Assembly (NCBI RefSeq): GCF_004801285.1
Contig: NZ_SSNY01000006.1
Span: 62,001-126,000, forward strand
DNA length: 64,000 nucleotides
From: Ollibium composti
Lineage (GTDB): Bacteria > Pseudomonadota > Alphaproteobacteria > Rhizobiales > Rhizobiaceae
Reading direction: 5' to 3'
Every line of letters begins with the position of its first letter. Within the stretch, counting starts at the first letter, position 1. The notes below the pieces were generated by a model. The model was not told where the DNA came from, made no database searches, and saw only the letters and a program-made list of their open reading frames with translations. Position numbers and translations under genes: made by a program. Positions 35,662 through 38,484 of the stretch are shown piece by piece.

Positions 35662-38268
35662 TCATCCGCCGCGCGGCTTGGCGCGACTGGTCGGCGCCGC
35701 TGCAAGCGGGTTCTCCGGCCAGACATGCTTGGGATAGCGGCCGCGCATGTCGGCGCGCACGTCGGCCCAGGAGCCACGCCAGAAGCCGGGCAGGTCGCGT
35801 GTCGTCTGGATCGGCCGATGCGCCGGCGACAAAAGCTCCAGCGTCAGCGGCACGGTGCCACCGGCGATGGACGGGTGGCGATCGAGGCCGAACAGCTCCT
35901 GCACGCGGATCGCCAGGACCGGCGCCTCCCGGTCGTAACGGACAGGCACGCGGCTGCCGGACGGCGCGTCGAAATGCGTCGGCGCGAACTGGTCGACCTT
36001 GCGCTGGAGGTCGTGCGGCACCAGCGACAGCAGGCCGGACGACAGGGCGCCCGGCGAAATCGCGGACAAAGTGGCCGCGCCGGTCAGGAACGGCGCCAGC
36101 CAGTCGTCGATACGGTCGAGCAGCACGGGTTCGCGCATGTCCGGCCATGGCTCGCCAAGGCCGCGATGCAACCAGCCGAGCCGGTTGCGCAGCGCCTCCG
36201 TCTCGCTGTTCCACGGCAGGATGGCGAGGCCGTTGGCGCGCACGGCGTCGAGGATGGCGTGGTCCGCATCGACGCCTGCGGGGGCCGGCAGCATGCGCTC
36301 GGCAAGCACGACCGCACCGAGCCGCTCCGTCTCGCGCACCCGGACCGCGCCGCGCTCGCGGTCGAAAGCCGTCTCGCGGACGATTTCGATGCGATCGGAA
36401 AGGGCCGCGCGGATGTCGGCCTCGTCCACCGCCGCCGCCCCGGTGATGCGCGCATCTCTCGCCTTGCCGGTGAGGTCGGCGACGACGAGCCACGGCGCGC
36501 CCGCCAGCGGATCGGCACCATCAAGCGCCGCACCCGAGCCGTTGGCGAGGACGAAACGGCCGCGCTCGCCGCGCGCCCGAGCGACACGATCCGGCCAGGC
36601 GTGGAGGAGAAGGGCACCGGGGCTGGCCTCTTGTCTTGACGAAGTGGCGGAGGGGTTCGCTTCTGCGTAGGGCAGCATACCCCCACCCCTGATCCCTCCC
36701 CTCAAGGGGGAGGGGAAGCTACCGCGCGCCAAGCCCCCCTCCCCCTTGAGGGGAGGGATCAGGGGTGGGGGTTCTTTCAAGCCCGTTGCCGACAAAGCAC
36801 TTCTTGCCAGCCTCTCCGCCAATTGCCGCGCCGCATTGGTACGCGAGGATTTCTCGCTGCGAAACCGCATCAACCGCCGTTCCAGATCGACGGCGTCGCC
36901 ACCCAGCCCGCGCTCGGTGAGCAGCACGGCAAGCTCGGCTGCTGGCCGTGCGGCACCCGCTCGCGCCGCCTCGGCCACCATATGCGCCAGCCTGACCGGG
37001 AGAGCGAGCCGACGCATGGCGGCGCCGGATTCCGTCAACCGCCCGGCCTCGTCGATGGCGTCCAACGTGCGCAGCAAGCCACGCGCCTCTGCGATAGCAG
37101 GAGCCGGCGGTGGGTCCAAAAAGGATAGGCTCGCCGGATCGGCGACACCAAAAGCGGCGCAGTCGAGCACCAGCCCCGAAAGGTCGGCTTCGAGGATTTC
37201 CGGCGGCGTGAAGGCGGGCAGCGCCGCCGTCTGCTCGGCCCGCCACAGCCGGATGGCGACGCCCGCCTGCGTGCGGCCGGCGCGGCCGGCGCGCTGGTCT
37301 GCCGAGGCCTTCGAGGCACGCACCGTCTCCAGCCGGGTCAGGCCGGAGGCGGGTTCGTATTTCGGCAGGCGCGACAGGCCGGAATCGATCACCACGCGCA
37401 CCCCGTCGATGGTGATCGAGGTCTCGGCTATTGCCGTGGCCAGCACCACCTTGCGGCGGCCGGGCGGCGCCGGGCGGATCGCCGCGTCCTGTGCCTTGCC
37501 GTCGAGTTGGCCATAGAGCGGCACGACGTCCACGTCGGCGCCGGTGCGGCCGTCCAACCGCTCGGCAGTGCGCTGGATCTCGCGCTGGCCGGGCAGGAAG
37601 GCAAGCACGCTGCCGCTCTCCTCGGCAAGCGCCGCCCGGATGGCTTTCGCCACCGCGTCCTCGACCGGCTCTCCCGGTGGCCGTTCACGGTGGCGGATAT
37701 CGACCGGAAAGGAGCGCCCCTCGCTCTCGACCACCGGCGCGCCGGAAAGCAGCTTGGCGACGCGCGCGCCGTCGAGCGTCGCCGACATCACCAGCAGGCG
37801 CAGGTCCGGACGCAACGCACCCTGCACGTCGAGCGCCAGCGCGAGGCCGAAATCGCCGTCCAGCGAGCGCTCGTGGAATTCGTCGAAGAGCACGGCCGAG
37901 ACACCGGGCAGTTCAGGATCGTCGAGGATCATGCGCGCCAGCACGCCCTCGGTGACGACGAGGATCTTCGTCCGCGCCGAGGTGCGGTTCTCCATGCGCA
38001 TGGCATAGCCGACGGTGCCGCCGACCTCCTCGCCGAGCAGTTCGGCCATGCGGCGGGCGGCGGCGCGGGCGGCGAGGCGGCGCGGTTCGAGCAGGACAAT
38101 GCGGCCGTTTCCGAGCCACGGCGCATCGAGCAGAGCGAGCGGCACCAGCGTCGTCTTGCCGGCGCCCGGCGACGCCACCAGCACGGCGGCACTGCCGGCA
38201 ACGAGCGCGTCCAGGAGCGCCGGCAGGGCGGCCGTTACGGGAAGCTCGGGAAGGGCGCGAACGGTCAT
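35662..38268 (-). CDS. hrpB: ATP-dependent RNA helicase HrpB, carrying an in-frame palindromic insert
   Basis: The product is 868 residues from the ATG at 38268; an in-frame extension to 38406 lacks homology-like sequence and is rejected. Motif I is SPGAGKTT, motif II is the DEAH-box variant DEFH, motif III is MSATLDG, and motif VI is QRAGRAGR. The HrpB C-terminal region ends with the GFWRGSWADVRADMRGRYPKHVWPENP family signature. Residues about 499-530 are encoded by a 94-bp inverted repeat (36679-36772) giving a low-complexity Pro/Gly-rich segment absent from the usual fold. The frame is kept, so the protein is probably functional. HrpB helicases act on RNA; in most bacteria the role is minor or undefined. 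Confidence 0.9.
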   Translation of the reverse strand: MTVRALPELPVTAALPALLDALVAGSAAVLVASPGAGKTTLVPLALLDAPWLGNGRIVLLEPRRLAARAAARRMAELLGEEVGGTVGYAMRMENRTSARTKILVVTEGVLARMILDDPELPGVSAVLFDEFHERSLDGDFGLALALDVQGALRPDLRLLVMSATLDGARVAKLLSGAPVVESEGRSFPVDIRHRERPPGEPVEDAVAKAIRAALAEESGSVLAFLPGQREIQRTAERLDGRTGADVDVVPLYGQLDGKAQDAAIRPAPPGRRKVVLATAIAETSITIDGVRVVIDSGLSRLPKYEPASGLTRLETVRASKASADQRAGRAGRTQAGVAIRLWRAEQTAALPAFTPPEILEADLSGLVLDCAAFGVADPASLSFLDPPPAPAIAEARGLLRTLDAIDEAGRLTESGAAMRRLALPVRLAHMVAEAARAGAARPAAELAVLLTERGLGGDAVDLERRLMRFRSEKSSRTNAARQLAERLARSALSATGLKEPPPLIPPLKGEGGLARGSFPSPLRGGIRGGGMLPYAEANPSATSSRQEASPGALLLHAWPDRVARARGERGRFVLANGSGAALDGADPLAGAPWLVVADLTGKARDARITGAAAVDEADIRAALSDRIEIVRETAFDRERGAVRVRETERLGAVVLAERMLPAPAGVDADHAILDAVRANGLAILPWNSETEALRNRLGWLHRGLGEPWPDMREPVLLDRIDDWLAPFLTGAATLSAISPGALSSGLLSLVPHDLQRKVDQFAPTHFDAPSGSRVPVRYDREAPVLAIRVQELFGLDRHPSIAGGTVPLTLELLSPAHRPIQTTRDLPGFWRGSWADVRADMRGRYPKHVWPENPLAAAPTSRAKPRGG
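36679..36772. repeat. REPIN-like palindromic element inside hrpB
   Basis: Two perfect 37-bp inverted arms (36679-36715 and 36736-36772) flank a 20-bp centre. Each arm starts ACCCCCACCCCTGATC on its own strand and contains a smaller imperfect hairpin (CCCTCCCC...GGGGGAGGG). The element is translated as part of HrpB. No REP-associated transposase gene is in the window. Confidence 0.9.
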
Positions 38269-38369
38269 CGTGGCGCGGGCATAGCAGCGGCGGCCGTACG
38301 GCGGCAAGACGGCGGCGGCTGCCGCCAAATCAGGATTGGCGCCGACGCAAAGATTTAGCTTCAGGGTCC

Positions 38370-38385
38370 GGTATTTTGGAATACC
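38370..38385. promoter_or_regulatory. Inverted repeat upstream of hrpB
   Basis: GGTATT-TTGG-AATACC is a perfect 6-4-6 inverted repeat about 100 bp before the hrpB start. The 255-bp gap between hrpB and the glucokinase gene otherwise holds only the terminator-like hairpin at 38485-38513. No regulator can be assigned. Confidence 0.3.
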
Positions 38386-38484
38386 ATGCTTGGTCGACAT
38401 CGACATATGCGGCGATGATGCAAAAATCGTCCATTCGCTTCCCGTTGCGACCGGACGATTCCTCTGAGTGGCTTCATGCCTGTC

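Follow-up and report, generated by a model that had tools for sequence, protein, structure and literature searches.

A multi-copy palindromic repeat lying in frame in the HrpB linker of Ollibium composti, and the repeated use of this linker by palindromic repeats

The window analysed here is a stretch of 64,000 nt of contig C6 of Ollibium composti. In it, hrpB lies on the minus strand (35662..38268) and encodes an ATP-dependent helicase of 868 amino acids from the likely start, with DEAD, Helicase_C and HrpB_C domains and with 6eud (HrpB) as the best PDB match. The mechanical ORF extends to 38406, 46 codons upstream of the likely start at 38268; this extension (38269-38406) precedes the conserved hrpB start, and most orthologue matches begin only at residue 30-47. 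Within the gene we observed a palindromic element of 94 nt (36679..36772, no strand assigned) of the type with a short centre. Its arm 1 (36679..36715) and arm 2 (36736..36772), both of 37 nt and without an assigned strand, are exact reverse complements and surround a centre of 20 nt (36716..36735) that has the AAGCTNCCGC...GCCAAG orientation on the plus strand, opposite to the gene (orientation score 14 forward and -1 reverse). Both arms contain a 22-nt core stem-loop, which in arm 1 lies on the minus strand at 36694..36715 (exact match to CCCCTCCCCCTTGAGGGGAGGG, contig C6:98694-98715) and in arm 2 on the plus strand at 36736..36757 (contig C6:98736-98757), and each arm folds on itself as CCCTCCCC-CTTGA-GGGGAGGG. 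The 100% complementarity of the arms, their exact coordinates and their own stem-loops agree with the preliminary description of this DNA.

A scan of the window for inverted repeats (seeds of 12 nt, spacers of at most 100 nt) gave only two other perfect ones, both of 12 nt, and the longest in 30 Markov-1 resampled windows was 14 nt versus the 37 nt observed. The mRNA strand of the element had a predicted fold of -98.1 kcal/mol (z -11.6), equalled by 0 of 200 shuffles, and the Rfam scan of the window returned tRNA only. The hrpB frame runs open through the element with no stop and with all three domains retained, and it would stay open with the centre inverted. Counted from the start at 38268, the element is predicted to be read as HrpB residues about 499-530, after the helicase core and ahead of the C-terminal domain, where the earlier description had also placed it. 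Since 94 nt is not a multiple of three, the flanking bases also take part in the in-frame outcome. The interdomain linker that holds the segment (36622..36786, minus strand, residues about 495-549) has no predicted secondary structure, and in the AlphaFold model of HrpB (mean pLDDT 84.2, pTM 0.68) residues 501-544 are the sole long stretch with pLDDT below 50, flanked by helices at 475-494 and 550-557. The linker falls in query 459-551, the gap left between the two parts aligned to 6eud. According to the model, the segment encoded by the element would thus sit in a disordered linker.

The element belongs to a family with many copies. The 22-nt core was found at 109 places in the 4.65-Mb genome with at most three mismatches (reversed control 0), and the whole 37-nt arm occurs 74 times, which excludes the single occurrence that would have spoken against a dispersed palindromic repeat comparable to RPE and REP doublets. 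Among the matches listed, the core places were uneven between contigs, C2 (526 kb) having 37 and C3 (523 kb) having 1. The arm was present in 18 of the 60 genus mates, at most 13 times in any of them, and it was counted 58 times in the sister genome G061 (a Mesorhizobium sp. MAG, with its hrpB locus as L137), 44 times in Aminobacter sp. J41 and 0 times in Pseudaminobacter manganicus. The exact arm was also seen on five viral contigs of IMG/VR (L277-L281), possible carriers between hosts, and a plasmid search gave six records covering at most 40% of the query. The architecture of the copies was read at 63 distinct sites of the O. composti genome. Type A copies (19 pairs) have a short centre of 14-28 nt, mostly 19-20 nt, type B copies (24 pairs) have a long centre of 52-91 nt, and in type C the identical core is turned the opposite way as in a REP-like doublet. 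The ends of the element are discrete, ACCCCC...GGGGGT, with flanks that differ between copies. Four long-centre copies (L023, L064, L087 and L094) have, judged by eye, extra flanking inverted sequence around CATATG, and therefore the full element may be longer.

It is likely that the copies were mobilised in trans by an enzyme. A REP doublet moved by a RAYT (REP-associated tyrosine transposase) would account for the head-to-head stem-loop pairs and the dispersed copies, and such a transposase elsewhere in the genome had been envisaged in the preliminary description. However, the Y1_Tnp profile (PF01797), which matched 5 of 14 controls, had no match in the O. composti genome or in any of the 8 other genomes carrying the element, while the 7 of 61 genus genomes in which it was found have 0-4 arms each; RAYT is rare in the genus and unrelated to copy number. 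In addition, the GTAG tag stands at the outer end of 4 of 64 O. composti arms, which is about the expectation for two free bases, and in 0 of 56 arms in the inner 4 nt. We consider mobilisation by a RAYT very improbable. A possible, if rather doubtful, alternative is a MITE, in which the arms would be terminal inverted repeats moved by a DDE-type transposase encoded in an insertion sequence with the same ACCCCCACCCC termini, since lost or unrecognised. The 37-nt arms do form terminal inverted repeats, and the discrete ends with differing flanks, the two size classes and the lineage-specific burst are all consistent with such an origin. In contrast, no target-site duplication was visible at the compared sites, nor a clean empty site, the sister sites having a deletion, another repeat or divergent flanks, and among the 65 of 74 O. 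composti arms listed there was no neighbouring facing pair 300-3000 nt apart that could resemble a parent. Two facing cores lie 2.6 kb apart on C5 (45698 and 48273), with the outer arms missing by eye.

Copies of the element are found in several other genes. A Pfam scan covering 40 of the 97 listed ORF rows found a family in 14 of the 40. Some copies separate domains, in DNA polymerase I, XdhC, an Lhr-like helicase, a double ABC ATPase and a 2-oxoacid dehydrogenase acyltransferase. Others lie within PGA_cap, an ATP-dependent DNA ligase and an amine oxidase; the copies of polymerase I and the ABC ATPase have the reversed arrangement of type C. Comparison with orthologues was made for the in-frame inserts of hrpB, the DNA ligase, the Lhr-like helicase, XdhC, PGA_cap and the acyltransferase, and the inserts of polymerase I, the ABC ATPase and the amine oxidase have a Pfam basis only. 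In the orthologue alignment the DNA ligase has its insert in O. composti and none in G061 or G065, and the Lhr-like helicase has one in O. composti and none in G065. For XdhC, O. composti has the element, G061 a different palindromic insert that also keeps the frame, and G065 no insert. The PGA_cap insert is present in both sisters (O. composti and G061), and that of the acyltransferase in O. composti, G061 and, in worn form, G065. The start of CoxE probably lies downstream of its copy. At L005, L021 and L092 the element is near the N-terminus, and these may be start misannotations. By eye, G061 has a different repeat at six of the sites (L070, L018, L004, L023, L077 and L010); reuse is seen at sites outside hrpB as well. 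The elements had no excess of open frames (2.7 in short-centre copies versus 3.3 in resampled sequence).

Palindromic repeats have landed in the HrpB linker again and again. Among the 57 of 60 genus mates in which it was read, it was short (45-78 nt) in 41 and held another palindromic insert in 16; two of the 60 loci were unreadable (one genome split over two contigs), and G014 and G019 are without the N-terminal part beside the linker. Judged by eye, none of these 16 inserts has the architecture of the window's element, so the segment in this form is absent from the genus mates read and not common to all orthologues. The insertion proposed in the preliminary description is supported, and the other palindromic inserts in the linker of the relatives had been overlooked. 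The O. composti linker would be 98 nt without its element, versus 45-54 nt in 38 of the 57 genus mates. In the sister locus L137 the linker contains GGGAGGGGTTAAGGGT, which by eye is 15/16 like the end of an arm and is perhaps the remnant of a deleted element. Among 80 named loci, hrpB of Aminobacter sp. J41 has the kind of insert seen in the window, in a long-centre form and in a different frame.

That the linker inserts are unrelated families was rejected, as all 16 inserts of the genus mates contain the window's 21-nt core stem-loop with at most three mismatches. The same core is found at up to three mismatches in the inserts of L159, L160, L166 and L170 and at exactly three in L216 (Tardiphaga robiniae), and the insert of L165 (M. 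zhangyense), with the core only at six mismatches, is the sole one clearly without it. The inserts of L165 and L216 had no BLAST match to any other insert. Judging from these sequences, most linker inserts are relatives of the window element in other arrangements.

For the distribution of the inserts we used a FastTree tree of 132 HrpB rows with the linker excluded (from 140 loci, of which 138 could be aligned over the two halves and 6 were then dropped as duplicates). An insert was present in 30 of the 132 rows, with at least 21 changes of presence on the tree, at least 15 with branches below 95 collapsed and at least 9 with those below 99 collapsed. By eye, L211, L163, L180 and L186 (linkers of 84-93 nt) were scored as having no insert; L185, with a run of N in the linker, was scored as having one, and L137 as having none despite the possible remnant. 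The commonest group of inserts has one strand orientation in 12 rows and the opposite one in 8. Three inserts (L036, L043 and L151) match the L039 insert in the opposite strand orientation, L043 at 154/178 and L151 at 158/184, and L151 adjoins L038 on the tree with its insert reversed at the same junction. However, L151 has about 86% identity to its neighbours, whereas L039, L038 and L205 have about 92% among themselves, and because of this lower likeness replacement by another copy is as possible at L151 as inversion in place.

The linker length was a multiple of three in 28 of the 29 fully read inserts. In L101 (G040) the linker of 170 nt is out of frame and hrpB lies in two frames, possibly a damaged gene or a sequencing error. 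That one linker is occupied repeatedly in different genera, together with the very stable RNA hairpin, could be taken to mean that the insert is selected for a function, either as an mRNA hairpin tuning hrpB expression or as a modular linker aiding HrpB. We find this improbable, as 102 of the 132 rows are without any insert, arrangement, strand, frame and length all vary, and the frame is broken in L101. Tolerance rather than benefit would explain why the insert has been retained. The hrpB linker of G059 is split across two contigs (C71/C113) and that of L185 has a run of N; since assemblies break or carry N at this place, surveys of draft genomes may undercount inserts. That repeats break assemblies in this way could also raise the question of an assembly artefact in the window itself, yet the unique hrpB flanks on both sides, the open frame and the similar inserts in independent assemblies leave this a negligible chance.

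In type A, the two arms of a copy resemble each other more closely than they resemble the arms of other copies (0 of 10,000 shuffles, and 0 of 20,000 with 17 copies). The test covered 17 of the 19 copies, L029 and L068 being left out as truncated or badly matched. In type B copies the matching within copies was weak, reached by 4541 of 10,000 shuffles unoriented and 801 of 20,000 oriented (16 copies); here the test covered 16 of the 24 copies, with centres of 58-69 nt and three more excluded by hand. A TGAT/ATCA variant is present in both hrpB arms and, in a pattern search of the fetched loci, absent from the other 62 of 64 distinct O. composti arms. The preliminary description had attributed the perfect arms to recent insertion or gene conversion: the conversion holds in substance, as seen from the arm matching of type A and the TGAT/ATCA variant, while a recent insertion is not required, because arm homogenisation gives an identical picture.

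We also observed an opposite orientation of the centre between O. composti and G061 at two common sites, L085 (PGA_cap) and L065, the two shared short-centre sites that provide the evidence for inversion. At both sites several of the arm differences between the two genomes are common to both arms, and the PGA_cap centre reads EAAAPKS in O. composti and ELGCGSF in G061. The centre call of L065 in G061 had a weaker score (8.5 versus -0.5) with a short centre, and the two arms of L085 in G061 differ from each other. At the type B sites common to both genomes the orientation was clearly the same at L066, L022 and L089 and probably the same at L080, with no call either way at L067.

Arm matching within copies and inversion of the centre are marks of template switching, which is reported to homogenise the arms and to invert the spacer of inverted repeats in yeast genes (Abraham and Hazkani-Covo 2021, PMC8604942). 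It is likely that template switching is the cause here as well. Ectopic gene conversion, with copies elsewhere in the genome recombining in either orientation, could possibly also explain the identical arms and the flipped centres, but we give it distinctly less credence. In its favour, dozens of near-identical copies are available, conversion from an oppositely oriented copy would give the same picture of inversion, and L084 has a short-centre copy in O. composti and a long-centre copy in G061. However, the equally numerous long-centre copies hold their orientation at L066, L022 and L089, their arm matching within copies is much weaker, and the 64 distinct O. composti arms include no donor for the TGAT/ATCA variant of hrpB.

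Taken together, we put a probability of about three in four on the reading that a multi-copy non-autonomous palindrome landed in a disordered linker, was kept as it was in frame and tolerated, and had its arms and centre rewritten by template switching. The element would consist of two REP-like stem-loops placed head to head, with arms prolonged on the outer side. A copy of it would have inserted into the disordered linker that joins the HrpB helicase core to the C-terminal domain, to be retained as the frame was kept and the linker was tolerant. A replicating polymerase switching template between the hairpin arms would make the arms alike within the copy and could flip a short centre. A further reading goes beyond this, taking the HrpB linker as a true preferred landing site across several genera and the hairpins as protein segments that rewrite themselves by template switching with the frame open on either strand. 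If so, the linker sequence would change in jumps, by homogenised arms or a flipped centre or whole insert, without breakage of the gene; since the core is common to most inserts, this further reading is judged less likely, and we regard it as rather unlikely.

A single linker that has been colonised repeatedly, by inserts of several arrangements and either strand orientation that almost always keep the frame, is a natural replicate series for the passage of selfish DNA into protein. The contrast between short-centre copies, in which arms match and the centre flips, and long-centre copies, in which neither clearly happens, provides a dispersed bacterial repeat in which template switching can be put to the test. 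It also seems that annotations may often treat TPTPNPSPQGGG or PPLxPPLKGEGG-like stretches in proteins as native sequence. No literature on this family in Mesorhizobium or Rhizobiales was found among the titles and abstract openings searched, with most subscription journals outside the coverage. As far as these searches reach, the family and its host, the many occupations of a single linker and the relation of centre length to arm matching are new.

Palindromic repeats within genes are already known. In Rickettsia, the RPE is a palindromic repeat inserted at tolerant places of many unrelated genes, with repair genes often among them. By its description it is like the window family, a dispersed palindrome in frame within several unrelated genes; the RPE differ in the order of the host, and in the window family one linker is reused repeatedly by differently built inserts. 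The main text of PMC3733652 (2013), in which the word Mesorhizobium is absent, describes CGTC REPs as mostly alpha-proteobacterial head-to-head dimers without an associated transposase, with an 8-bp stem, a 5-nt loop and spacers of 20-100 bp. It counts Rickettsia RPE-4 and RPE-6 among them and reports intragenic copies in replication and repair genes, with recB of two Xanthomonas struck at about the same site. Compared to the dimers of that text, the window family is alike in the size of stem and loop (8-9 bp and 4-5 nt, with CCCTCCCC-CTTGA/CTTGC-GGGGAGGG in each arm) and in the head-to-head order, and also in the range of its spacers, its alpha-proteobacterial host and its copies inside replication and repair genes. 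However, the CGTC REPs presented there carry a CGTC (or TGTC/CCTC) tag, whereas the tag of the window family is inconstant: of 56 O. composti arms, the four inner nt next to the core are AGTC in 14, GCTT in 11, CGTC in 10, AATC in 6 and TGTC in 1, with others fewer. They are also described with A-T pairs at the first two stem positions and a CCA-like tail, while the stem of the window family begins with C-G pairs and each of its arms continues outward for 15 nt, for example as GTTAGGGGTGGGGGT, in a stretch that pairs with its counterpart in the other arm. Because the A-T start and the CCA tail are missing and the tag is inconstant, we have not filed the window family as a CGTC REP.

Two further systems are similar in part. 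The yeast repeats of PMC8604942 share arm homogenisation and spacer inversion in coding inverted repeats, and they are short inverted repeats, whereas the window repeat is a dispersed element. The coding palindromes of Nematomorpha mitochondria (PMC6649704) are likewise long perfect inverted repeats within translated genes, but their arms encode conserved protein while those of the window encode a segment missing in most relatives. Among these systems, the hrpB segment is a coding palindrome like the RPE and the REP dimers, in a family and a host that are new as far as the literature searched shows.
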